Positions 277 to 32,140 of a DNA stretch of 64,000 nucleotides are shown here, in pieces. The stretch spans positions 1,196,391 to 1,260,390 of the forward strand of contig NZ_BAAARN010000001.1 of NCBI RefSeq assembly GCF_039532215.1. The letters run 5' to 3'. Position 1 is the stretch's first letter, and each line of letters begins with the position of its first letter. The notes beneath the pieces are model-generated. The model saw only the letters and a list, made by a program, of their open reading frames with translations. It did not search any database and had not been told where the DNA came from. The translations under genes and the position numbers were made by a program. The stretch is from Pedococcus aerophilus. Its GTDB lineage: Bacteria; Actinomycetota; Actinomycetes; Actinomycetales; Dermatophilaceae.

Positions 277-995
277 GAGTCCGCTCCCTGGGTCGCGAAG
301 CCGCGCTCGGCGGCGTAGTCGGTCAGCAGCTCACGCAGCTGGCGCCTGCCACGGTGCAGCCGGGACATCACGGTGCCGATCGGCGTCTCCATGATCTCGG
401 CGATCTCCTTGTAGGCGAAGCCCTCGACGTCGGCGAGGTACACCGCCATGCGGAAGTCCTCCGGCAGCGCCTGGAGCGCCCGCTTCACCTGCGTGTCGGG
501 GAGGTGGTCCAGCGCCTCGGTCTCGGCCGAGCGCAGACCCGCCGAGCTGTGCGACTCCGCACGGGCCAGCTGGTAGTCCTCGATCTCGGCGGCGTCCGAC
601 TGGAGCGGCTCGCGCTGCTTCTTGCGGTAGCTGTTGATGTAGGTGTTGGTGAGGATGCGGTACATCCACGCCTTGAAGTTGGTGCCCGGGCGGTACTGGT
701 GGAACGCGGCGAAGGCCTTCGTGTAGGTCTCCTGCACGAGGTCCTCGGCGTCGGCCGGGTTGCGCGTCGTGCGCAGCGCGGCCGAGTACAGCTGGTCGAG
801 CAGGGGCATGGCCTCGAGCTGGAAGCGGGCCTGCCGCTCCTCGGTGCTCTCGGTGGCCACGTCGACGGTCATGGCAGCAGCCTTGGCGTCGGCCACCGCG
901 TCGGCCACAGGGTCGGTCGACTCGTCGGTCACGACGTCGGTGGCACCACCGGTGGCACCGTCGGTCGCGGCGTCGGGGGCAGGGGTCTCAGTCAT
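273..995 (-). CDS. sigR: ECF RNA polymerase sigma factor SigR
   Basis: This is a group IV sigma factor for thiol-oxidative stress. Region 2 is recognisable ([16 protein letters not shown], then [11 protein letters not shown]) and so is a region 4 helix-turn-helix ([22 protein letters not shown]). The start is ATG at 995, behind a GGAGGG ribosome site; the product is 240 aa. An acidic Thr/Ala/Asp-rich tail of about 50 residues precedes region 2, and an internal ATG at 872 would give a 199-aa form. The reading frame also stays open upstream to 1211, so a longer isoform is possible, as is known for SigR of Streptomyces. The gene overlaps rsrA by 4 bp. A SigR-type promoter lies at 1179-1206, which indicates self-activation. 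Confidence 0.92.
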
Positions 996-7573: not shown

Positions 7574-8125
7574 ATGGAGTCCATGGGCGTGCTGGCGAGG
7601 AGCACCGCCGGCGTGGTGGGCACGGCCCCCGCGCTGGAGGCCGATGCGCTCGTCGTCACGCTCTTCACGGCAGAGTCCGCCCGCCTCGTCTCGCTGGCCC
7701 GGTTCTTCGTCGACGACCGCACCGCGGCCGAGGACCTCGTCCAGGAGGCGTTCATCCGGCTCGCCCGCAGCAGCCACCGCATCCGTGACCCGGAACGCGC
7801 CGCGGCCTACCTGCGCTCGATCGTCATCAACCTGGCCCGGGACCACAACCGGCGAGGGCTGGTCTCGTTGCGCCACCGACCGCCAGCGGTCCCGGACGAG
7901 CCGTCGGCCGAGGAGATGGCCACCGCGCTCGAAGGGCGGCGCGAGGTCGTCGAGGCGATCCGCGCACTGCCCCGGCGCCAGCGCGACTGCGTCGTCCTGC
8001 GCTACTACCTCGAGCTGGGCATCGACCAGGTCGCCGAGACCCTCGACCTGTCACCCAACTCGGTCAAGACCCACCTGCGTCGCGGTCTACGGACCCTGGG
8101 CGCACGACTGGAGGAGCAGCGATGA
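7574..8125 (+). CDS. ECF-type sigma-70 family RNA polymerase sigma factor
   Basis: This is a short sigma factor of 183 aa from the ATG at 7574. Region 2 is seen in DRTAAEDLVQEAFIRLARS and AAAYLRSIVINLARDHNRR. Region 4 is seen in LPRRQRDCVVLRYYLELGIDQ and LDLSPNSVKTHLRRGL. The linker is short, as in the SigE/SigM-like ECF groups. A second ATG at 7583 is an alternative start; neither has a clean ribosome site. The stop overlaps the next ATG by 4 bp, and that gene encodes a membrane protein which may act as its anti-sigma partner. The target promoters are unknown. Confidence 0.88.
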   Translation: MESMGVLARSTAGVVGTAPALEADALVVTLFTAESARLVSLARFFVDDRTAAEDLVQEAFIRLARSSHRIRDPERAAAYLRSIVINLARDHNRRGLVSLRHRPPAVPDEPSAEEMATALEGRREVVEAIRALPRRQRDCVVLRYYLELGIDQVAETLDLSPNSVKTHLRRGLRTLGARLEEQR

Positions 8126-10915: not shown

Positions 10916-11848
10916 TCAGCGCGACTTCGGGTCGAAGGCGTCACGCACGGCGTCGCCGAGCATGATGAAGGCCAGCACCGCAAGGGACAGGAACAGGCTG
11001 GGGAACAGCAGGATGTGCGGGTAGGTCCGCAGCGCGACGAGCGCGTCGGAGATCGCCACACCCCAGGAGACCGCCGGCGGCGTCAGACCGATGCCGAGGA
11101 AGCTCAGCGTCGCCTCGACGGTGATGAAGACACCGAGGTTGATCGTGGCGACGACGATGACCGGCGCCAGGGCGTTGGGCATGACGTGGGCACGGATGAT
11201 CCGCCACGGACTCGCCCCGAGGGCGCGAGCCGCCTGGACGTAGTCGTTGGGCTTGACCTGCATGACGCTGGAGCGCATCAGGCGGGCGATGCCCGGCCAG
11301 CCGAAGATGGACAGCACGAGCACGACCTTGCCGACGACCACGAGGTACGGGGAGTTCTCGTCGTTGGGGAAGGTGGACATGAACAGGATGCCGCCGAGGA
11401 GCAGCGGGATCGCGAAGAAGATGTCCGTGACGCGCGAGACGAAGCTGTCGAGGAAGCCGCCGTAGTAGCCGGCGAGCACACCCATGACCAGTCCGATGAC
11501 CACCGTGGCGATCGTCGTGAAGACACCGACGAGGATCGAGGCGCGGGCGCCGTAGATCGTCCGGGCGTAGATGTCGTAGCCCTGGATGTCGCGACCGAAC
11601 CACGCGTCGCCACCGGGCTTCTCGCGGGCCTGCTTGAGGATCGCCTCGTTGGGGTCGACGTTGGTGAACAGCTGCGGCAGGGCTGCCATCAGCACGAACA
11701 CGGTGATGAGCCCGACGGACACCCAGAAGATCGGGTTCCGCTTGAGCTGCCGCCAGGCGTCGGACGCCAGCGAGCGGCCCTCGTCCGCCGAGCCTCCGGC
11801 GGGCTGGCCCGCCTCGGAGGAGACGGCGATGGTCGATGCCTCAGTCAT
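10916..11848 (-). CDS. dppC: Peptide ABC importer permease (DppC type)
   Basis: This inner-membrane permease of 310 aa has the OppC N-terminal region followed by five or six transmembrane helices. The EAA loop that docks the ATPase is visible (VQAARALGASPWRIIRAHVMPN). After the first helix there is a periplasmic stretch with GDAWFGRDIQGYDIYART, typical of DppC. The ATG at 11848 overlaps the dppB stop by 8 bp. Substrate type cannot be told from the permease alone. Confidence 0.93.
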   Translation of the reverse strand: MTEASTIAVSSEAGQPAGGSADEGRSLASDAWRQLKRNPIFWVSVGLITVFVLMAALPQLFTNVDPNEAILKQAREKPGGDAWFGRDIQGYDIYARTIYGARASILVGVFTTIATVVIGLVMGVLAGYYGGFLDSFVSRVTDIFFAIPLLLGGILFMSTFPNDENSPYLVVVGKVVLVLSIFGWPGIARLMRSSVMQVKPNDYVQAARALGASPWRIIRAHVMPNALAPVIVVATINLGVFITVEATLSFLGIGLTPPAVSWGVAISDALVALRTYPHILLFPSLFLSLAVLAFIMLGDAVRDAFDPKSR

Positions 11849-12965: not shown

Positions 12966-13015
12966 CGACGCTGTCTGGATCCGCTCACCCGGTGGGGCGG
13001 GCGGTCCGGGTCGAC

Positions 13016-23080: not shown

Positions 23081-23872
23081 TCAGGCCTTCTTCGGCGGGC
23101 GGGGCAGGAAGTAGCTCGTGCGCTCGCGGTACTCGGCGTAGCCGGGCCGCTCCCCCATGTGCTTCTCCAGGAGCTTGGCCCCCGTCGCGAAGACGAGGAA
23201 GTACGTCATGACGACCGGCGACAGGACGGTCAGGACGCCGGGCCAGGCGCTCGCGGCCACGACGTAGATCCCCCACCAGACGCAGGAGTCGCCGAAGTAG
23301 TTGGGGTGGCGGGTCCACGACCACAGGCCGCGGTCCATGACCTTGCCCTTGTTGGACGAGTCGGCCTTGAACGCCTTCAGCTGGGCGTCGCCGACCGCCT
23401 CGAACGTGAGGCCGACCGCCCACAGCAGCAGCCCGAGCACGGCCACCCACGCGATCCCGGGTCCCGAGGCCGCACTCACCTGGATCGGCAGCGAGACGAA
23501 CCACACGGCCAAGCCCTGGACGAGGTAGACCTTGCGGATGGCCACCGCCGTGGGGTTGCCGGACTCCTTGGACAGCATCTCCTCGTAGCGCGGGTCCTCA
23601 CCCTTGCCGGCGTTGCGCCGCGTCACGTGCCAGGCGAGGCGCAGGCCCCAGGCCGCGACGACGACCACCAGTGCGATGCGACGCCACCCCGCGCCGTCGC
23701 CGACGAGTGCGGCCACGACGGCCACGACGACGAACCCGAGCCCCCACGTCGTGTCCACCACGGCCACCCGACCCTGCCGGGCGCCGACGACCGCGGTCGC
23801 CGCCATGAGGACGACGACCGCGAGGAGCGAGAGACCGGTGACGGCCAGGAAGTTCGAGCTGTCGAAGGTCAT
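23081..23872 (-). CDS. DUF1295 (steroid 5-alpha-reductase-like) membrane protein
   Basis: The 263-aa membrane protein has six or seven hydrophobic segments. The family C-terminal signature is clear: LWSWTRHPNYFGDSCVWWGIYV, followed by LEKHMGERPGYAEYRERTSYFLP. Family members resemble 5-alpha-reductases and isoprenylcysteine methyltransferases and may reduce or modify lipids. It is the last gene of the lipid operon, and its ATG overlaps the stop of the upstream methyltransferase by 4 bp. TACGAT lies 6 bases before the ATG, so an extra internal promoter is possible. The substrate is unknown. Confidence 0.85.
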   Translation of the reverse strand: MTFDSSNFLAVTGLSLLAVVVLMAATAVVGARQGRVAVVDTTWGLGFVVVAVVAALVGDGAGWRRIALVVVVAAWGLRLAWHVTRRNAGKGEDPRYEEMLSKESGNPTAVAIRKVYLVQGLAVWFVSLPIQVSAASGPGIAWVAVLGLLLWAVGLTFEAVGDAQLKAFKADSSNKGKVMDRGLWSWTRHPNYFGDSCVWWGIYVVAASAWPGVLTVLSPVVMTYFLVFATGAKLLEKHMGERPGYAEYRERTSYFLPRPPKKA

Positions 23873-25185
23873 GACCAGATCGTAGGCCGCTGGGGCGGCA
23901 GGCCCGACGTGCCACGGTCCGGACGGACCGAGAGGATCTGGTCGACGCCCATGCGGCCGTCACGGAACGCCATCGAGCCACCCACGAGGTAGAGCCTCCA
24001 GACGCGGGCGACCTCCTCGCCGACGAGGGCGACGGCGCGGTCCCAGTTGGCCTCGAACGTGTCGTGCCACGCGTCGATCGTGCGGACGTAGTGCTCGCGC
24101 AGGGCGTGCACGTCACGCACCTCCAGGCCCGACTCCTCGATGAGGTCGACCGTCTGGCCGATCGGGCGCATCGTCATGTCCGGGGCGATGAACGACTCGA
24201 TGAACGGCCCACCGCCGGGGTGGCGTCCCCGACGCGACATCTGCTGGATGAGGACGCGTCCGCCGGGTCGCACGCGGTCGTGCAGGACGGACGTGTAGGT
24301 GCGGTAGTTGCGCTCGCCCACGTGCTCGCCCATCTCGAGCGACACGACGGCGTCGAAGTCGCTGTCCGGCACGTCGCGGTAGTCCTGGAGCCGGATCTCG
24401 ACCCGGTCCTGGAGCCCGCGCTCGGCGATCCGGGCGTCGATGAACTTCTTCTGCTCGGCGGCGATCGTCACACCGGTGACCTGCGCACCGAAGTGCTCCG
24501 CGGCGTACAGGCTCATCGAACCCCAGCCACAGCCGATGTCGAGCAGGCGCATCCCGGGCTCCAGCCCGAGCTTGCGGCAGACGAGGTCGAGCTTGTCGCG
24601 CTGGGCGTCCTCGACCGTGTAGTCGGGGTCGTCGGACGTCCAGTAGCCGCACGAGTACGCCATGTGCGGGTCGAGGATGAGCTCGTAGAAGTCGTTCGAC
24701 AGGTCGTAGTGGTGGTGGATCGCCTGCTTGTCCCGACCGAGGCTGTGCAGGCGCCCCTTGATGACGGCTTGGCTCGCCGGCGGCGGGAGCGGAACTCCTA
24801 GTGCCCCAGCACTCTTCGCGACCTTGACGACCGCGGCGATGGTCGAGGGGGTCGGACGTATGCCGCCCAGCCCGCGCTCGTGCGCGACGTCCCACACGTG
24901 GGTGAGGGCCGTGTCGAGGTCACCCTCGACGTCGAGCTCACCGGTGACGTAGGCCTGGGACGCACCCAGCTCGCCGGGGTGGCGCAGCAGGCGCCGCAGG
25001 GCACGCGGGGAGCGCAGGACGACGTGGGGCGCGTCCTGCGGCCCGGCCGCGCTGCCGTCCCACGCCGTGAGGCGGACCGGGAGCTCGCCACCGACGAAGG
25101 GGGCCAGCGCCTCGGCGATCTCGGTCGCGACGCCGGTGGTGGCCGACGTGGTGGTGCTGGTGCTGGTGGTCTGTGTCGCGGTCAT
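23869..25185 (-). CDS. Cyclopropane-fatty-acyl-phospholipid synthase-like SAM methyltransferase (first paralogue)
   Basis: A 438-aa S-adenosylmethionine enzyme expected to act on the double bond of membrane phospholipid acyl chains. The SAM loop is LLDIGCGWGSMSLYAAEHFG. The family active-site cysteine is kept (MAYSCGYW), preceded by IHHHYDLSNDFYELILD. After the SAM fold it reads SLEMGEHVGERNY and APDMTMRPIGQTVDL, unlike the IHKYIFPGG form of true CFA synthases, which points to a different methyl product. The N-terminal 15 residues are Thr/Ser-rich. It overlaps its paralogue upstream by 4 bp. The pathway is inferred from neighbours. Confidence 0.85.
   Translation of the reverse strand: MTATQTTSTSTTTSATTGVATEIAEALAPFVGGELPVRLTAWDGSAAGPQDAPHVVLRSPRALRRLLRHPGELGASQAYVTGELDVEGDLDTALTHVWDVAHERGLGGIRPTPSTIAAVVKVAKSAGALGVPLPPPASQAVIKGRLHSLGRDKQAIHHHYDLSNDFYELILDPHMAYSCGYWTSDDPDYTVEDAQRDKLDLVCRKLGLEPGMRLLDIGCGWGSMSLYAAEHFGAQVTGVTIAAEQKKFIDARIAERGLQDRVEIRLQDYRDVPDSDFDAVVSLEMGEHVGERNYRTYTSVLHDRVRPGGRVLIQQMSRRGRHPGGGPFIESFIAPDMTMRPIGQTVDLIEESGLEVRDVHALREHYVRTIDAWHDTFEANWDRAVALVGEEVARVWRLYLVGGSMAFRDGRMGVDQILSVRPDRGTSGLPPQRPTIWS
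23879..23884 (-). promoter_or_regulatory. Putative internal leaderless -10 box before the DUF1295 gene
   Basis: On the minus strand TACGAT lies 6 bases before the DUF1295 ATG, inside the end of the preceding coding region. It could give separate expression of the last operon gene. Confidence 0.3.
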
Positions 25186-26519
25186 CGGCCGCCTTCCCTC
25201 TGGAGAACGAGCTGCTGGACGTCGAGGTACCCGGAGCGGAAGCCCGCCCGCGAGTACTCGAGGTAGAAGTGCCACATCCGGTCGAAGACCTCGTCGAATC
25301 CGAGCTGGTGGACCCGGTCGAGCGCACCGAGGAACCGCTCGTCCCACAGCCGCAGGGTCTCCCCGTAGTGCTGGCCGAAGGACAGCCGCTCGGTGACGCG
25401 GAGCGAGGTCTGCTCGCGGTTGACGTCCACGATGGCCTGCGTCGAGGGAAGGAAGCCGCCGGGGAAGATGTACTTGTGGATCCACGTGTAGGTGTAGCGC
25501 GTGGCGAGCATCCGGTCGTGCGGCATGGTGATGGCCTGGATGGCCACCTTGCCGCCCGGCGCGAGGACGCTGTCGATGGTGCGGAAGTACTCGCCCCAGT
25601 ACTCGTGGCCGACGGCCTCGATCATCTCCACCGAGACGACCGCGTCGAACTGGCCCTCGACGAGGCGGTAGTCGAGCAGCTCGACGTCGACCGCGTCGGC
25701 GAACCCGGCGGCGGCGATCCGCTCGCGGGCCAGGGCCTGCTGCTCCGAGGACAGCGTCACGGACAGGACGGTCGCGCCGCGGCGGGCCGCGCGGATCGCG
25801 AGCTCACCCCAGCCGGTGCCGATCTCCAGCACCCTGCTCCCCTCACCCACGCCGGCCGAGTCGAGCATGCGCTCGACCTTGCGACCCTGCGCCTCGGCGA
25901 GGTCGTCCCAGGCCGGGACCGAGGCAGGACGGCTGACCGTGACGGTCTCCCCCGCGACCGGGCCACCCTTCTGCTCGCTGCCGGCGAACAGCGCCGACGA
26001 GTAGCTGAGGGTGCTGTCGAGGAAGGTGGCGAACATGTCGTTGGACAGGTCGTAGTGCCGCGCGATGTTGCTGCGGGTGTTGGCCGTCGAGTTCTTCTCG
26101 GTGTGCGGCATGCGCGCGACGTACACGGCGCGCAGCTTCTGCAACGGCTCGGGGACGAGCGTGGCCATCTGCGCGGCGAACACCTCGAGCAGGCCACCGA
26201 GGTCCTCGGCGTTCCAGTCGCCGGCCATGTAGGACTCACCGAAACCGATGAGGCCGTTGGCCCCCACGGCCTCGAAGAAGGCGTCGGGGCGCTCGAGCAC
26301 CATGAGCGGAGCGTTCGGGTCGGTGGCGGCGCCGCCGACGATGGACTCGCGGCCGATCTGCACGCGCACCGGCAGGCGCTTGACGGCCGACATGAAGATC
26401 CGTCGGGCGAGCGCGCCCTCCACGACGCGACGCGCCTTGGCGCGGCGCGCGGTCAGGCCGGGCCAGCGGGCCGGGTCGATGGCGGGGCTCATGGCGAGCC
26501 CTGCGGTGGCGGTGGTCAC
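25182..26519 (-). CDS. Cyclopropane-fatty-acyl-phospholipid synthase-like SAM methyltransferase (second paralogue)
   Basis: The 445-aa enzyme starts with GTG at 26519 behind AGGAGG, overlapping the DUF1365 stop as GTGA. Its SAM loop is VLEIGTGWGELAIRAARRG. It has SVEMIEAVGHEYWGEYF and IHKYIFPGGFLPS, the typical end of CFA synthases. The place of the active-site cysteine reads LSYSSALF, so Cys is replaced by Ser, as I recall for the subfamily found in clusters with DUF1365. Its job may be methylene or methyl transfer to unsaturated acyl chains at the inner membrane face. It is coupled to both neighbours. Confidence 0.87.
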   Translation of the reverse strand: MTTATAGLAMSPAIDPARWPGLTARRAKARRVVEGALARRIFMSAVKRLPVRVQIGRESIVGGAATDPNAPLMVLERPDAFFEAVGANGLIGFGESYMAGDWNAEDLGGLLEVFAAQMATLVPEPLQKLRAVYVARMPHTEKNSTANTRSNIARHYDLSNDMFATFLDSTLSYSSALFAGSEQKGGPVAGETVTVSRPASVPAWDDLAEAQGRKVERMLDSAGVGEGSRVLEIGTGWGELAIRAARRGATVLSVTLSSEQQALARERIAAAGFADAVDVELLDYRLVEGQFDAVVSVEMIEAVGHEYWGEYFRTIDSVLAPGGKVAIQAITMPHDRMLATRYTYTWIHKYIFPGGFLPSTQAIVDVNREQTSLRVTERLSFGQHYGETLRLWDERFLGALDRVHQLGFDEVFDRMWHFYLEYSRAGFRSGYLDVQQLVLQREGGR

Positions 26520-27247
26520 TGGACTGCCTCCTGGTGGTGGGAAGGACGGGGTTGGACCGGCAGGCGACGCAGCCACAGCCAGATGCCGTGGAGGCGGATC
26601 CGTGCCGAGACGGACAGTGGTTCGAGGGGTTGCGTCAGGGCGAGGCGCACGACGGTGCGGGTGGTGACCGGCAGCGCGTGCCCGGTCATGCCGGCGACGA
26701 AGGCCGGGCGACCCGGGCGTCGCAGGACGACCTGCACCATGACCTTCTCGTCGGGCTCGGGGACGGTGAGGCTGTAGGAGCCCGACACGTCGTTGAACGG
26801 GCTGACGTACAAGGCTTTGTCGACCTCGGCGCGGCCGAACTCGTCGGCGTGGACGAGGTAGGCGTGCCGGTCGCCGTAGGTGTTGTGGACCTCGACCACG
26901 GTGCACACGAGGGCACCGTCCGGGTCGTGGCACCAGTGCACGCTGATGGGGTTGAAGACCGTGCCCAGGACCCGCGGCACCGCGAGCATGAGGATCTTTC
27001 CTCCGCGCAGGTCGATGCCCTGCGTCGCCAGGAAGGTGTCGAGGTTCTCGCGCAGCGTGCGGTCCGGGTCGCCGAGGTGGTCGCGCGCCTCGAAGCTCGC
27101 CAGCCGCTGGAGCCGGCCGAGCCGCGGCAGGTCGTCGAGGTCGACGAGCCAGCTGTGGCTGCGGGTGCGGAAGCGGTGCGCGACCGGCTCCTTGCGGGCG
27201 TGGTGGACCGACGTCGCGTAGATGCGCGTCGCGGGCGAGGCCCTCAT
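26516..27247 (-). CDS. DUF1365 family protein
   Basis: This 243-aa protein belongs to DUF1365, a family almost always found between an FAD amine-oxidase-like gene and a CFA-like methyltransferase. The signature stretch is visible: TRIYATSVHHARKEPVAHRF at the start, FNPISVHWCHDPDG with a conserved His/Cys, and FNDVSGSYSL. Its biochemical role is unproven; a part in unusual fatty-acid formation is inferred from this constant context. The ATG overlaps the stop of the FAD gene by 4 bp and its own stop overlaps the next start. It is probably soluble. Confidence 0.9.
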   Translation of the reverse strand: MRASPATRIYATSVHHARKEPVAHRFRTRSHSWLVDLDDLPRLGRLQRLASFEARDHLGDPDRTLRENLDTFLATQGIDLRGGKILMLAVPRVLGTVFNPISVHWCHDPDGALVCTVVEVHNTYGDRHAYLVHADEFGRAEVDKALYVSPFNDVSGSYSLTVPEPDEKVMVQVVLRRPGRPAFVAGMTGHALPVTTRTVVRLALTQPLEPLSVSARIRLHGIWLWLRRLPVQPRPSHHQEAVQ

Positions 27248-28644
27248 CGGGCGACGGCTTCCCTGGGCCTGGTGTCCACCACCGGCTCGTCCCAGTCGAC
27301 ACCGAGGGCCGCAGCGGCCCTGGCCCCGGACAGCGCGCCATCCTCGTGGAACCCCCACCCGTGGTACGCACCGGCGAAGGCGATCCGCGAGGTGTTGATC
27401 TCGGGCAGGCGTCGCTGCGCCGCAACAGATTCGGGCGTGTAGAGGGGGTGCTCGTAGCTCATCGTGTCGATGACCTTCGACTGGTCGACGCAGTCCACGC
27501 CGTTGAGTGTGACGAGGAAGCGCACGTCCGGCACGTCGAGGCGCTGCAGCCGGGTGAGGTCGTAGGTGACCAGGACACCGGTGCCGCCGTCGCTCTCGGG
27601 CCGGCGCCAGTAGTTCCACGAAGCCCGGGCGCCGCTCGTGTGCGGCAGCACCGACTCGTCGGTGTGCAGCTGGGCGACGTTGCTGGAGTAGTGGATCGCG
27701 CCCAGCACGTCGGCCTGGAGCTCGGTGGGCTCGCTGAGCAGGGCGAGCGCCTGGTGCGGGTGGGCGGCGATGACCACGGAGTCGTAGGTCTGGCTGTCAC
27801 CGTGGGCGTCGACCACGACGACGCCGTCTGGCGTCTCGGTGACCGAGCTGACGGGCGTGGCCAGCCGGACCTCGTCGATGCCTGCTGCCAGCGCCTCGAC
27901 GTAGCGCTTCGAACCCCCGGTCACGGTCCGCCAGGTGGGCGAGCCGAAGACCGTGAGCATCCCGTGGTGGTCCAGGAACTCGAAGAGGTAGCGCGCGGGG
28001 TACTGCAGCGACACGTCCGGGTCGCACGACCAGACCGCGGCGACGACGGGCTCGAGGAAGTGGCGGGTGAAGTACGGGCTGAAGCCCACCCGGGCGGCGA
28101 ACGCACCGAGCGTCTCGTCGCGGTGGGCGTCGGACGCCTCGCGTGACAGGACGTCGCGGGCCTCGCGGTGGAACTTCTTCACCTCGGTGAGCATCCGCAG
28201 GTAGGACGGGTTGGTGAGGTTCGCGGCGCGCGGGAACAGGCCCTTGGCCTTCTTGGCGCCGGCGTACTCGAGGCCGGACTCGTCGTCGCGGACGGACATG
28301 CTCATGTCGGAGTCCTGCGTGGCCACCCCGAGCTCACCGAAGAGGCGCAGCAGCGTGGGGTAGGTGCGGTCGTTGTGCACGATGAAACCGGTGTCGACAC
28401 CGATGGTGCGGTCGCCGACCTGCACCTCGTGCGTGTCGGCGTGGCCGCCCAGGCGGGCGTCGGCTTCGTACAGGGTCACCGGGCCGCGCGTGCCGAGCAC
28501 GTGGGCGGCCGTGAGGCCTGCGACTCCGCTGCCGATGACGGCGCGGCGTGGTGCTGACATGGTGGTCCATCCGTTCAGGGGGTCGACGTGCTGGTCATTC
28601 GTCGTGCGGGGTCCGGCGGATTGCCCGGGGGCGGCGGTGCTCAT
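27244..28644 (-). CDS. FAD-dependent amine-oxidase-like oxidoreductase
   Basis: A flavoprotein with the N-terminal dinucleotide fold VIGSGVAGLTAAHVL, then YEADARLGGHADTH and VDTGFIVHNDRTYPTL, as in the desaturase/amine-oxidase group tied to DUF1365. The C-terminal FAD contact is RIAFAGAYHGWGFHEDGALSG. In related clusters this protein is thought to oxidise or desaturate the acyl chain. The start is uncertain: ATG 28644 overlaps the upstream stop by 4 bp, the rule in this operon, and gives 466 aa; ATG 28560 would remove a 28-residue polar tail and match most relatives. It feeds straight into DUF1365. Confidence 0.88.
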   Translation of the reverse strand: MSTAAPGQSAGPRTTNDQHVDPLNGWTTMSAPRRAVIGSGVAGLTAAHVLGTRGPVTLYEADARLGGHADTHEVQVGDRTIGVDTGFIVHNDRTYPTLLRLFGELGVATQDSDMSMSVRDDESGLEYAGAKKAKGLFPRAANLTNPSYLRMLTEVKKFHREARDVLSREASDAHRDETLGAFAARVGFSPYFTRHFLEPVVAAVWSCDPDVSLQYPARYLFEFLDHHGMLTVFGSPTWRTVTGGSKRYVEALAAGIDEVRLATPVSSVTETPDGVVVVDAHGDSQTYDSVVIAAHPHQALALLSEPTELQADVLGAIHYSSNVAQLHTDESVLPHTSGARASWNYWRRPESDGGTGVLVTYDLTRLQRLDVPDVRFLVTLNGVDCVDQSKVIDTMSYEHPLYTPESVAAQRRLPEINTSRIAFAGAYHGWGFHEDGALSGARAAAALGVDWDEPVVDTRPREAVAR

Positions 28645-29849
28645 GCCGTTCCGGGAGGTCTGGCGGCCGGCACCAGCCAGCGGGCGGTCTGCCGGGAGGC
28701 CACGGCCACGACGGTCTCGAGTGGGCCGCGCAGGGGGACGAGGGCGAAGAAGGCACCGACGGCGGTGACCACGAGGACCTGGTCGTCGTAGTGCTCGGGG
28801 AGCTCCCAGTCGGGCCACCAGCCCTGCGCCATCATCAGCACGTGCAGGGTGTAGAGGGACAGGGTCATCGCCCCCGCACCGAACACGGCAGCCCACACCC
28901 GGGGAAGGAACCGGGTCAGGAGCACGCAGAGCCCGGTCAGGGCGAGCGCGCTGCCGATCGTGTGGGCGAGGTCGAGGGGGGTGCCGGAGTGCGGCGTCAC
29001 CACGGCGAGCCACCACCACGATCCGGTCGGGGTCGTCCCGCTGAGCCCGTGGGTCAGCAGCGCGTCGAGGGCGGCCGGGTCGGCCAGCGACGGGTCCGGC
29101 GTGGCGGCGTCGGGGTAGGTGGCCGCCAGCGAGGCGCGGGCACCCGGCCGGGCGAGGAGCGCCCGGGAGACCACCTGCGCCGCGAGCGCGAGGACCGCTC
29201 CGCCCACGAGCAGGCGCGCAGCGGTGGCGGGGCGTCCGAGCGGGAGGCGGCCGAGCGCCATACCGGCCAGGAGGTAGGCCACCCAGACGGCGGCCGGGTA
29301 GTAGCCGGTGAGCAGCAGCTCCCCCAGCAGGTGCGCGGGCCGCAGGAGGTCCCCAGGCGTGGGGCTGCCGACCTCGTGGGAGGGCAGCAGCGGCCTGATC
29401 AGGTGCGATCCGACCGGGACGGCGAGCACCCAGGCCACGGCCCACCCGGCGAGCGCTCGCGGCCCCAGGCCGAGGAAGGGCAGCCCGAGGACGAACAGGA
29501 CGGCGTAGGAGGCGAGGATCACCGCGATCACGGTGGGCACAGCCCCGAGCGCGAGCCCGAGGGCGCCCACGAGCAGCGCCCGGACGACGAGGCGCACGGA
29601 CACCGCGGTGCGCTCACGTCCTCGCACCGGCTCGGACCGTCCGCTGACCAGGGCGAGGCTGACGCCCGCGAGCACGGCGAACAGTGCCGATGCGCGACCA
29701 CCGGCGAGCTGCTGGACCCACGGCACCTCGGTGCCGACCCGGCCGGGGAGCACGTGCGTGGCCATCATCCCGAAGAGCGCGAGCGCCCTGGCGACGTCGA
29801 CGCCGACGACCCGCCCCGGCGCGACGTCCGGGAGGACGGGTTCGCTCAT
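28641..29849 (-). CDS. DUF418/heparan-acetyltransferase-like membrane protein
   Basis: The 402-aa protein has about ten hydrophobic helices. The N-terminus GVDVARALALFGMMATHV with a membrane-embedded histidine is the hallmark of the DUF418/DUF1624/HGSNAT group, which moves acyl groups across or onto the membrane. The C-terminal part LSLYTLHVLMMAQGWW carries a further histidine. It belongs to the lipid operon: 47 bp behind the SDR gene and overlapping the FAD gene by 4 bp. Its acyl donor and acceptor are unknown. Confidence 0.8.
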   Translation of the reverse strand: MSEPVLPDVAPGRVVGVDVARALALFGMMATHVLPGRVGTEVPWVQQLAGGRASALFAVLAGVSLALVSGRSEPVRGRERTAVSVRLVVRALLVGALGLALGAVPTVIAVILASYAVLFVLGLPFLGLGPRALAGWAVAWVLAVPVGSHLIRPLLPSHEVGSPTPGDLLRPAHLLGELLLTGYYPAAVWVAYLLAGMALGRLPLGRPATAARLLVGGAVLALAAQVVSRALLARPGARASLAATYPDAATPDPSLADPAALDALLTHGLSGTTPTGSWWWLAVVTPHSGTPLDLAHTIGSALALTGLCVLLTRFLPRVWAAVFGAGAMTLSLYTLHVLMMAQGWWPDWELPEHYDDQVLVVTAVGAFFALVPLRGPLETVVAVASRQTARWLVPAARPPGTA

Positions 29850-29896
29850 GACCTCATCCTGTCAGCCGGGGTGCACGATCGCGCGCCCGACCGTGC

Positions 29897-30637
29897 TCAC
29901 CACGGCAGCGTGGCGCCGTCCCTGAAGAAGCCCCCGGTGGGTCCGTCGTCGGGCAGGGTCGCCGCCCACACCACTCCGGGGGCGCTCGCGGCAGCAGTCC
30001 GCTCGCCACCGGCGGAGGGCGAATCGGGGCAGACGGTGTTGACGAGGATGCCGCCGGTGGCGAGCTCCGCGGCGAGGAGGCTGGTCAGGGCGTTCAGGGC
30101 CGCGGCGCCGATCCCGTATGCCGCGTCGGCGCCGGCGCGCGCGCCGAGCCCGAGCACCGGGTCACCGTGGGAGCCTGCCCCGCTCCCGACGTTGACCACC
30201 CGGGGGTGGTCGCTGCGCAGCAGCAGCGGCAGGAAGGCCCGGGTGAGGCGCCAGGCACCGAACAGCGCCACGTCGAGAAGCTGACGGGCCTGCTCGAGGT
30301 CGGCCCCGGTCACGGTTCCCGCCCACGGCTCGCGCTCAGTCGGCTCCCGGTCGCCCGGCCGGCTGTGCGCGGTGGTGTTGACGAGGATGTCGAGGCGGGC
30401 TCGTGAGGCCACCACGGCCGCCACGGCCGCGTGCACCGACTCGTCGTCGGTCACGTCCAGGTCGACCCCCAGCGGCTCGAGCGCCGGGAGGTCGACGACG
30501 GCGTCCTTGGCCGCCTCCGCGGTGCGAGCAGCCACCAGCACGACGGCCCCGGTGAGCGACAGCTGCCGGGCGACCTCGAGTCCGAGACCGGTGTCGACGC
30601 CGGTGACGAGGGCGACCGGCGTGGGGGTGGTGTTCAC
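29897..30637 (-). CDS. Short-chain dehydrogenase-like protein with a degenerate active site
   Basis: The 246-aa protein has an SDR fold. The cofactor loop is TGVDTGLG (residues 12-19). The catalytic region keeps the serine (VNVGSGAG) and Tyr174, but the lysine of YxxxK is Ala178 (AYGIGAAALNAL), and NNAG reads NTTA. It may therefore bind NAD(P) without normal catalysis or serve a regulatory role. It starts with GTG at 30637 behind GGAG. It heads the lipid operon on the minus strand, about 140 bp downstream of a small secreted-protein gene. SDR genes are frequent in LitR/CarH-linked clusters. Confidence 0.8.
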   Translation of the reverse strand: MNTTPTPVALVTGVDTGLGLEVARQLSLTGAVVLVAARTAEAAKDAVVDLPALEPLGVDLDVTDDESVHAAVAAVVASRARLDILVNTTAHSRPGDREPTEREPWAGTVTGADLEQARQLLDVALFGAWRLTRAFLPLLLRSDHPRVVNVGSGAGSHGDPVLGLGARAGADAAYGIGAAALNALTSLLAAELATGGILVNTVCPDSPSAGGERTAAASAPGVVWAATLPDDGPTGGFFRDGATLPW

Positions 30638-30667
30638 GAGCGCTCCGCGGGGAAGGACGGGTGGGTG

Positions 30668-30770
30668 GACCCCGACGTGCCGGAGCGGGTCGCGACACGT
30701 CGGGGTCGGTCAGGGCGCCGCTGCCGGTCGGCCGGCAGCAGGCGCGGAACGGCGTGGGCGCTCAGCGCCC
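30668..30770 (-). terminator. Cluster of three hairpins after the secreted-protein gene
   Basis: A perfect 12-bp stem (30668-30679 with 30696-30707), a 7-bp stem CTGCCGG/CCGGCAG (30721-30738) and a 6-bp stem GGGCGC/GCGCCC (30756-30770) lie in a row. They probably end transcription of the 30779 gene, so the SDR operon would need its own promoter here or read-through. Confidence 0.6.
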
Positions 30771-30778
30771 GACCCCGG

Positions 30779-31087
30779 TCAGGAGCACCAGGGGTAGACG
30801 AACAGGCTCTTGTCCCCGGCGCGGTGGTCGGCGAGCACGACGCTCAGGGGCAGCGGGTCGGGCAGGGACGCGACGTCGGTCCCGGCACGGGGAGTGACGC
30901 CGACGGCGACGGCGGTGGAGATGGGCAGGCCGTCCTTGGCCACGGCGCTGAAGACCCCCAGTCCCTTGAGGGCGTTCATACCGGCCCGCATGCAGGCGGT
31001 GTCGGGGGCGGCACTGGCCGACGTGGCGGGGACGAGGACGGCGGAACCGACCAGGGCGAGGGCGGCGGCGACACGGGTGAGCTTCAT
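30779..31087 (-). CDS. Small secreted protein of unknown function
   Basis: The product is 102 aa with a clear signal peptide ([18 protein letters not shown], cleavage probably after TSASA). The mature part is about 75 residues with two cysteines, one near its start (DTACMRAG) and one at the very end (YPWCS), which could form a disulfide. I recognise no family. ATG 31087 follows ATGGAG. It is divergent from the CarH-like regulator and shares with it a 175-bp control region that contains an inverted repeat, so it may be part of the light-linked regulon. Confidence 0.65.
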   Translation of the reverse strand: MKLTRVAAALALVGSAVLVPATSASAAPDTACMRAGMNALKGLGVFSAVAKDGLPISTAVAVGVTPRAGTDVASLPDPLPLSVVLADHRAGDKSLFVYPWCS

Positions 31088-31164
31088 TGCTGTGCACTCC
31101 ATTCGACGGGGACGAGGTGGTCGCCTCGACCCCTGATCGAGACGACCGGCTGGGGGCGCACCGA

Positions 31165-31194
31165 GTGAACAATGTTTGTCCAACGTTGCGTCAC
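31165..31194. promoter_or_regulatory. Candidate operator of the CarH-like regulator
   Basis: CAATGTT and AACGTTG flank TGTCC (31170-31188), and the outer GTGA and TCAC extend the symmetry to 30 bases. TTGTCCA from its centre recurs at 31222-31228. It lies between the divergent secreted-protein and regulator genes and is unusually AT-rich for this genome. Confidence 0.5.
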
Positions 31195-31249
31195 CCGAGA
31201 TCCTGCTCCTGTCCGGAGCCGTTGTCCAGACTTTGCCCAAGGTGGGGGC

Positions 31250-31255
31250 TACGCT
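31250..31255 (+). promoter_or_regulatory. Putative leaderless -10 box for the CarH-like gene
   Basis: TACGCT lies 6 bases before the GTG at 31262; no Shine-Dalgarno site is visible. Confidence 0.45.
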
Positions 31256-31261
31256 GCGCTC

Positions 31262-32140
31262 GTGTACACGATCAGCCACGCCGCACGGCTGACCGGCGTC
31301 CCCGCGGCGACGCTGCGCGTCTGGGAGCGGCGCTACGGGCTGGTCGCCCCGATCCGCACCGACGGCGGCTACCGCCTCTACGACGAGCGGGCCCTGCAGG
31401 TGGTCCGGGCGATGTCCTCCCTCGTCGCCGCCGGTTGGGCCCCGAAGCAGGCTGCGGACCACCTCCTCTCCGACGAGGGCGGGGTCCCACCCGCACAGGC
31501 ACCGGAGCCGGCCACCGACCAGGAGTTCGACGCCCTGGCCCGCGGCGCTGCCGCCCTCGACCCGGTCGCGGTGTCCGCCGCGATGGACGACGCGTTCTCG
31601 CGCGGGACCTTCGAGGACGTCGTGGACTCCTGGCTCATGCCCTCGCTGCAGGTCGTCGGCACGTGGTGGCGCGACGGACGGGTCGACGTCGCCGGCGAGC
31701 ACGTCGTCAGCGCGACCGTCCACCGCCACCTCGGCGCGGCCATGGAGGCGACGCCCTTTCGCAGCTCGGGCCCCCTCCTCGCCGTCGGCCTCGCCCGTGG
31801 TTCGCACCACGAGCTCGGGGTGCTGGCGTTCTCGGTCGTGCTCCGCCGCCGAGGCGCCCGGGTCGTCTACCTCGGCACCGACCTGCCCGCCCAGGACTGG
31901 GTCAACGTCGTGCGACGGCGCTCCCCCGTGGCTGCGGTCGTCGGGGCGCCCATGCGGACGGACGTCATCGCGGTGCGGGAGACCGCCGACGCCCTGCGCG
32001 CCAACCATGCCGGGTTCCCCGTGTACGTCGGCGGCGGGGCCCAGGACGAGGTGGGGCACGGCACCATCGCCCTCGGGCACACGATCCGCGACGCCGCAGA
32101 CCGCCTCGAGGTCGACCTCGGTCTCGACCTGCGGCGCTGA
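31262..32140 (+). CDS. MerR family regulator with B12-binding domain (CarH/LitR-like)
   Basis: The 292-aa protein starts with a MerR helix-turn-helix (YTISHAARLTGVPAATLRVWERRYG, continuing to GGYRLYDER). A helical bundle and a Rossmann B12 domain follow. Three features match CarH/LitR photoreceptors: Trp136, nine residues, then Glu146-His147 (W-x9-EH), and His183 in SHHELG, which would be the lower axial ligand of adenosylcobalamin. The spacing is almost the same as in Thermus CarH (W131, E141-H142, H177). The protein would bind DNA in the dark and release on illumination. It is divergent from the lipid operon and a small secreted gene. The GTG start appears leaderless. Confidence 0.85.
   Translation: MYTISHAARLTGVPAATLRVWERRYGLVAPIRTDGGYRLYDERALQVVRAMSSLVAAGWAPKQAADHLLSDEGGVPPAQAPEPATDQEFDALARGAAALDPVAVSAAMDDAFSRGTFEDVVDSWLMPSLQVVGTWWRDGRVDVAGEHVVSATVHRHLGAAMEATPFRSSGPLLAVGLARGSHHELGVLAFSVVLRRRGARVVYLGTDLPAQDWVNVVRRRSPVAAVVGAPMRTDVIAVRETADALRANHAGFPVYVGGGAQDEVGHGTIALGHTIRDAADRLEVDLGLDLRR

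Follow-up and report, generated by a model that had tools for sequence, protein, structure and literature searches.

A 64,000-nucleotide stretch (hereafter the window) of the Pedococcus aerophilus genome, an assembly of 4.02 Mb on 10 contigs that is rated 100% complete, encodes a MerR-type regulator of the LitR/CarH family, which is divergent to a run of predicted genes for the modification of membrane lipids and separated from them by a gap with predicted CarH-type operators. It has a probability of about 70% that this regulator is a photoreceptor-repressor that directly controls the lipid-modification operon. Judging from sequence, a soil-type actinobacterium appears to use a CarH-type B12 light sensor to switch on genes of membrane fatty-acid modification; better-known bacteria use such a sensor for protective pigments. 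The initial annotation of the window had proposed a lipid operon under the control of light and B12; the regulatory half of this proposal gains what can be regarded as strong support from the repeats, the signature residues, the predicted CarH fold, and the presence of a cobalamin adenosyltransferase, whereas the claim of an enlarged gene set did not hold.

In the proposed mechanism, the regulator would bind adenosylcobalamin (AdoCbl) in the dark and assemble on both predicted operators, which would keep litR and the operon off. Blue or green light, by breaking the Co–C bond, or a lack of AdoCbl would release the regulator and allow transcription of litR and the operon. Under a CarH-type mechanism, darkness and B12 would both be required to keep the operon off. 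The flavin adenine dinucleotide (FAD) oxidase (UfaD-like), the DUF1365 protein (UfaO-like), and the CFA-type methyltransferases would then act on cis-unsaturated phospholipid acyl chains, yielding first methylated, then diunsaturated, and finally furan (or methyl-branched) products that may scavenge singlet oxygen. The DUF1295 and SDR proteins are probable reductases in this modification of acyl chains.

The regulator and its linkage to lipid genes

The regulator has the domain layout of CarH, with an N-terminal MerR DNA-binding domain and C-terminal four-helix and Rossmann B12-binding domains (PF13411, PF00376, PF02607, and PF02310 scored over the cut-off), and Thermus CarH can be aligned to its residues 1–237 (3whp, 1.7e-25; 5c8d, 2e-25). 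Alignment and domains agree with the earlier identification of W136-x9-E146-H147 and of H183 in HxxG; the corresponding residues of Thermus thermophilus CarH (TtCarH) named in PMC11796333 are W131, E141, H142, and H177. The Wx9EH motif caps the adenosyl group and, according to PMC9304148, helps to separate CarH from CarA in myxobacteria. The light-responsive signature GxxW, EH, GxxH, and GxxxP, published with experimental checks (PMC11796333), is complete in the window protein (G133xxW136, E146H147, G180xxH183, and G205xxxP209). Across 25 lipid-linked sequences, G133, W136, E146, H147, H183, G205, and P209 are invariant, and G180 is present in 24. An AlphaFold2 model based on 48 sequences (mean predicted local distance difference test score 93.6; predicted template modeling score 0.70) has its best matches in the PDB among CarH chains, and the B12 domains superpose on most CarH and CtMerR chains with 2.6–3.2 Å over about 200 columns (4.1 Å for 3whp).

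The regulator is a CarH homolog that probably works like CarH. It would be most like class I, the B12-binding LitR class. A tree of 48 of the 81 regulator sequences (one of them unlabelled) was computed with a quick method and contains no class I–V reference proteins. Among the named relatives, the closest (79% identity) belongs to Phycicoccus sp. Root101, in a scan that may omit near-identical records.

The linkage between regulator and lipid genes is conserved. The regulator search matched 99 of 149 genomes of the family, from which 40 loci were fetched; 25 of these show the complete FAD–DUF1365–CFA1 core in divergent orientation to the regulator. Among the remaining family loci, one ends at a contig end and is cut after the FAD gene (L075), one has the core on the strand of the regulator (L071), and 13 lack the core. 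The full divergent core is present also in 37 of 80 named loci, and a recurrence at this level makes a chance arrangement very unlikely. The linkage spans Intrasporangiaceae/Dermatophilaceae and Nocardioidaceae and is clustered on the regulator tree (8 changes versus 15.6 by shuffling). In relatives from Micropruina that lack the lipid core, the regulator is divergent to idi- and crtI-like genes, and in a relative from Tessaracoccus to an idi-like gene only (first residues read by eye); these carotenoid-type loci carry the same 11-bp repeats, as expected of a photoregulator.

Predicted operators between regulator and operon

The CarH proteins of Thermus and Bacillus megaterium bind tandem 11-bp repeats of the form nnnnTnnACAn (PMC9304148). 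This consensus was applied unchanged (strict tandem) and in a relaxed form (RCA) to 27 gaps between regulator and lipid genes, comprising the window and 26 of the 40 family loci; in the remaining 14, neither an HGSNAT-like nor an FAD gene stands divergent to the regulator within 1,200 bp. The scan covered the whole gap in the window (624 bases, including the gene of a small secreted-type protein) and in loci of the same genus, and the first 280 bases from the FAD gene in all other loci (the entire gap in L044). The strict tandem occurs in 23 of the 27 gaps (0.07 expected) and the relaxed form in 26 (0.36 expected); the gaps are related rather than independent draws, and the expected counts are from first-order resampling, with 200 per gap. 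Outside the genus of the window, the strict repeat is present in 20 of 20 gaps.

The strongest result is that a matrix trained on the 23 distinct strict sites from these 20 loci (all non-genus gaps) places the two best sites of the window in one gap, the 174 bp between the secreted-type gene and litR. The best site elsewhere in the 64-kb window reaches 10.5 bits, and the maxima of 12 shuffled sequences peak at 13.9 bits. A control was provided by a class-level sample of DUF1365 relatives, whose 84 places are spread over 83 of the 296 genomes of the class; 80 loci were fetched, leaving out that of the window, another from the same genus, and two with weak matches. An FAD match is present in 71 of these and absent from the other nine; six of the 71 (among them L216) have a LitR with Wx9EH. 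In the 300 bases upstream of the FAD gene, none of the 65 loci without such a LitR (32 linked to sigma/RskA-type genes, 33 others) has the repeats.

A repeat scan of 16 loci included three with homologs of the secreted-type gene (L111, L121, and L128; see below). Among the other 13, a strict repeat lies near litR in seven and elsewhere in one (L114), and five have no repeat (L126, L117, L141, L107, and L138). A paired TGTACA operator of the Pseudomonas type was rejected: the pattern tried was unmatched within 350 bases upstream of litR in the 40 loci and the window, whereas the 11-bp repeats fit. A wide regulon is likewise not supported, as a pattern scan of the genome found four sites in 4.0 Mb versus one in the reversed control. 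One of the genomic sites (L243) lies about 120 bp upstream of a gene that by eye encodes an LLM-type oxidoreductase, and its TGAGCA units are weak. The one locus with a photolyase gene (L241) has no relaxed repeat.

Several observations weigh against direct control by a light-responsive LitR. Within the genus of the window, the strict repeat is present in only three of seven gaps; the window itself has a relaxed but not a strict match, its operator 2 matches neither form, and the gap of a locus from the same genus (L037) lacks even the relaxed repeat. The relaxed consensus alone matches four times within the 64 kb, and three of these matches lie outside the gap. Among the six class-sample loci with a Wx9EH LitR near lipid genes, only one has the repeats; set beside their absence from the 65 loci without it, this still ties the repeats to the LitR clade rather than to the enzymes. 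Neither a −10/−35 pair, a sigma-70 promoter, nor a terminator was found between positions 30600 and 31300, so an overlap of operator and promoter is not supported. The operators are separated from the HGSNAT-like gene by the secreted-type and SDR genes, both of which are inserted, and by a hairpin.

The regulator itself also departs from the classic picture. The full B12 motif D/ExHx2Gx41SxTx22-27GG (PMC9304148) is not present; the His, Gly, and GG are kept, but the acidic residue is replaced by S181 and the Ser by G228, which may alter or abolish the binding of B12. R137 is the counterpart of TtCarH H132, and the TtCarH mutant H132A is unable to monomerise (PMC11796333). The superposition of the whole chain on CarH crystals is poor (template modeling score about 0.5–0.6, with root mean square deviations of 12–18 Å for most) and good per domain only, which is expected because the domains are hinged. 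The CarH equivalog NF052513 (TransRegCarH) is the best NCBIfam match of the regulator, but with 116 of 400 bits, which makes it a CarH homolog and not a TransRegCarH equivalog. According to PMC12705666, light-activated LitR of Streptomyces promotes litS, so the sign of regulation could differ.

Products of the operon and alternative readings

By family and gene order, the window carries a furan set: the FAD and DUF1365 genes are adjacent in the order of ufaD and ufaO, and a CFA-type gene follows. UfaD is presumably the FAD/amine-oxidase protein of this set and UfaM its CFA-type methyltransferase. In Rhodobacter, UfaD (RSP1091) and UfaO (RSP1090; DUF1365) convert methylated vaccenate via a diunsaturated form to a furan acid, with the ring made by UfaO and its oxygen derived from O2 (PMC7380195). 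The best guess for substrate and product would be light-induced methylated or furan fatty acids directed against photo-oxidation.

Somewhat less likely than not, the enzymes form methyl-branched, methylene, or cyclopropane chains instead of furan acids and tune the membrane under stress, which would be compatible with light control. The presence of two CFA-type enzymes, together with a DUF1295 protein weakly similar to 5-alpha-reductases that accompanies the set in 51 of the 80 class loci, speaks for such products, whereas the combination of FAD and DUF1365 genes beside a CFA-type gene is that of the furan set UfaD, UfaO, and UfaM (PMC7380195). CFA1 has Ser and Gln at the positions of Cys and His in E. 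coli CFA (6bqc; aligned also to 5z9o), and in CFA2 the Cys is retained, with Gln in the other position (alignment to 5z9o and 7qos). Both positions are assumed here to belong to the CFA active site, and the changes make a non-cyclopropane methylation plausible. No UfaO-like enzyme is reported in the paper on furan acids of Agrococcus.

Less probable is a reading that retains the same operon and the same operators but takes the regulator for a sensor of B12, or for a CarA-like repressor that works without B12, in either case lacking a useful response to light; it would report the supply of AdoCbl or some other signal. A search for a single family of corrin synthesis, CbiC, found no match in the genome (other corrin-synthesis genes were not searched), so B12 is probably imported. 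The partly degenerate B12 motif fits this possibility, as does the variability of the H132 position, which is occupied by A, R, E, or Q in the 25 lipid-linked sequences. What speaks for light is that Wx9EH is intact in all 25 of them, as are the other residues of the light signature except G180 in one, and that relatives of the regulator adjoin carotenoid-type genes with the same repeats. According to PMC11796333, CtMerR has an Arg at the H132 position and retains its green-light response. The genome encodes a cobalamin adenosyltransferase (PF01923) and has five B12-binding matches. Phytoene synthase was not found in a single-family search of the genome, which makes a carotenoid target unlikely; the CarH-type switch seems to act for the membrane rather than for a carotenoid.

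An ordinary stress operon under an extracytoplasmic function (ECF) sigma factor (SigK/RskA-like), with the MerR gene merely alongside, is very improbable: 32 of the 71 FAD-bearing class loci have a sigma and/or RskA-type gene within the stretch fetched (27 sigma, 22 RskA-type), but positions 13000–42000 of the window have no match to the clustered sigma/RskA-type proteins, and the MerR linkage recurs with CarH-type repeats in the gap. These counts are based on our own calls of open reading frames and BLAST clusters, with one representative each checked against Pfam (first 130 amino acids), and refer to FAD-bearing loci; eight loci in a tally of all loci with sigma/RskA-type genes have no FAD gene. 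Two ECF-sigma-like stretches in the left part of the window (324–800, minus strand; 7643–8089, plus strand) are more than 15 kb away from the operon.

Gene neighborhood and relation to known systems

The genes divergent to the regulator are listed in Table 1. The initial annotation had recognized the SDR, FAD, DUF1365, two CFA, and DUF1295 genes, but it had labelled the acyltransferase-like protein as DUF418, which is absent at E 1e-3 and was replaced by PF07786, and had overlooked the secreted-type gene, so that the SDR gene does not lie directly beside the MerR gene. Overlaps of 4 bp connect FAD with DUF1365, DUF1365 with CFA1, CFA1 with CFA2, and CFA2 with DUF1295, and extend to HGSNAT/FAD if the FAD gene starts at 28644; this run would be co-transcribed. 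The SDR and HGSNAT-like genes are 47 bp apart. The DUF1295 protein, which is weakly similar to steroid 5-alpha-reductases, is a candidate acyl-chain reductase.

Table 1. Features of the predicted regulon in the window
Feature	Position	Strand	Remarks
DUF1295 protein, last of overlapping run	23081..23872	-	PF06966 E 1e-74; PF02544 E 6e-8
CFA2, second CFA-type S-adenosylmethionine methyltransferase	23869..25185	-	PF02353 E 7e-86
CFA1, CFA-type S-adenosylmethionine methyltransferase	25182..26519	-	PF02353 E 7e-82
DUF1365 protein, candidate UfaO-type furan-forming oxygenase	26516..27247	-	PF07103 E 9e-67
FAD amine-oxidase-like protein, candidate UfaD-type desaturase	27244..28560 (alternative ATG 28644)	-	PF01593 E 1e-30
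Acyltransferase-like membrane protein (HGSNAT_cat)	28641..29849	-	PF07786 E 8e-7
SDR-family oxidoreductase	29897..30637	-	PF00106 E 1e-28
Hairpin GACCCCGACGTG...CACGTCGGGGTC, 12-bp stem	30668..30707		between secreted-type gene and SDR
Small secreted-type protein, 102 amino acids	30779..31087	-	no Pfam family at E 1e-3
Predicted LitR operator 2, TGGACA + degenerate TGTTCA	31163..31186	-	operon side; 25.2 bits, rank 1 in window
Predicted LitR operator 1, 11-bp repeats TGGGCA/TGGACA	31220..31243	-	next to litR start; 23.5 bits, rank 2 in window; relaxed consensus match
LitR/CarH-type regulator, 292 amino acids	31262..32140	+	GTG start; MerR helix-turn-helix, four-helix B12-binding_2, and B12-binding Rossmann domains

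The secreted-type gene is possibly the first gene of the transcript and a member of the regulon. Its homologs, 77–80% conserved, are located near litR in two Knoellia loci and in Janibacter HTCC2649, where litR is only 40–42% identical, and a strict tandem repeat lies upstream of the homolog in two of the three loci (L111 and L121, with the homolog at 11020–11328 and about 10939–11192, respectively; not in L128). The gene therefore looks like a previously unrecognised member of the LitR regulon. In loci of the same genus, the HGSNAT-like gene was found in L036, L037, L040, and L055 but not in L038 and L043; the SDR and secreted-type genes were not matched at this place in the former four. The hairpin between the secreted-type and SDR genes is possibly a leader element; similar hairpins precede the HGSNAT-like gene in L036, L037, and L040 (by eye). 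An assignment to a repeat family was rejected, since a loose pattern matches just four places genome-wide.

The lipid genes themselves are not specific to this regulator. Around the 80 class DUF1365 genes, an FAD gene is found in 71 loci, CFA1 in 68, DUF1295 in 51, and CFA2 in 39, so that FAD–DUF1365–CFA–(CFA)–DUF1295 is a common actinobacterial set and not new; neither the second CFA and DUF1295 genes nor the placement in a Gram-positive bacterium, both highlighted in the initial annotation, are out of the ordinary. The set of M. tuberculosis is presumably represented by Rv0449c–Rv0446c. In that species, sigK is autoregulated via the Rv0449c promoter (PMC7509140). An Aminobacter plasmid carries a sigma–ChrR pair and an SDR gene next to FAD–DUF1365, and a Rhodococcus plasmid carries FAD–DUF1365–CFA plus DUF1295. 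The window shares core genes and order with the actinobacterial sets, many of which lie near ECF sigma/RskA-type genes, but adds the secreted-type, SDR, and HGSNAT-like genes and has no sigma/anti-sigma match within 15 kb of the operon.

The regulator shares domain layout, folds, Wx9EH, the lower-ligand His, and 11-bp repeat operators with CarH of T. thermophilus, B. megaterium, and Myxococcus xanthus, but differs in its fatty-acid target, the lack of a detected phytoene synthase gene in the genome, R137 in place of H132, and the loss of the acid and Ser of the B12 motif. Class II LitR of Pseudomonas (PplR/PmlR) is likewise a LitR-family repressor connected to light-induced fatty-acid genes, with ufaM, SDR, FAD, and phrB genes induced by light (PMC9758184). 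However, it retains only the four-helix part of the B12-binding region, has a LOV partner, and uses the operator TGTACA-N12-TGTACA, whereas the window regulator has both B12 domains and 11-bp repeats. It is also unlike the class V LitR described in PMC9758184, which lacks a B12 domain and occurs mainly in Micrococcales. The UfaM–UfaD–UfaO system of Rhodobacter has the UfaD/UfaO order of the FAD and DUF1365 genes and a CFA-type methyltransferase in the set, but its regulator is the anti-sigma factor ChrR instead of LitR. Streptomyces likewise possesses an actinobacterial coenzyme-B12 LitR, but its LitR promotes litS, and the sigma factor encoded by litS transcribes crtE; the window regulator has a lipid target and no adjacent sigma partner.

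Control of ufaM by the LitR family is not new, as it has been published for Pseudomonas (PMC9758184). What seems to be new is a B12-type LitR with the lipid module as a conserved and direct target; among the open-licence PMC papers listed, no title or opening of an abstract points to control of these lipid genes by a B12-type LitR in actinobacteria. Slightly more likely than not is a wider reading, in which the AdoCbl-dependent LitR of Dermatophilaceae/Intrasporangiaceae and some Nocardioidaceae would be devoted to the control of membrane acyl chains by light. The products would be furan or methyl-branched acids, the regulon would include secreted-type and SRPBCC proteins, and the window genome has no detected carotenoid pathway. 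One lipid module would then be served by four sensors, namely ECF sigma/RskA, sigma-E/ChrR, class II LitR with LOV, and B12-type LitR. If true, the direct target of a B12 photoreceptor would be membrane lipids instead of carotenoids, in a bacterium that possibly depends on the import of B12, and this conserved photo-oxidative module would gain a fourth regulator. In easily grown actinobacteria, it would become possible to test whether light induces furan or methylated fatty acids, and high-GC Gram-positive bacteria would provide a compact switch for green light together with its predicted operators.

Other observations concern relatives of the regulator and the company of the lipid genes. In 33 of the 37 named lipid-linked loci, an SRPBCC gene (Polyketide_cyc2; PF10604 in the representative) lies ahead of litR in the same orientation, about 450 bp upstream in L042 and most others; it was not matched in four loci from the genus of the window (L080, L081, L082, and L104). 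In Luteipulveratus (L126; 7246–7974 and 9258–10906), an SDR 56% identical to that of the window lies about 2 kb from a litR that is, by eye, divergent to an ECF sigma-like protein and resembles a LitR–LitS pair. A second, distant MerR protein of the P. aerophilus genome (L242, 6351–7355) is 31% identical to the regulator over the matched part, in a 14-kb stretch without a relaxed tandem repeat. Relatives with 33–36% identity occur in Chloroflexota (Roseilinea, Thermoflexales; L155, L157, and L159), where the lipid core is absent. A photolyase/cryptochrome-type gene (one representative checked against Pfam) is located near DUF1365 in 10 of the 80 class loci (L187, L188, L190, L191, L193, L197, L200, L215, L219, and L232), which again links the lipid set to light.

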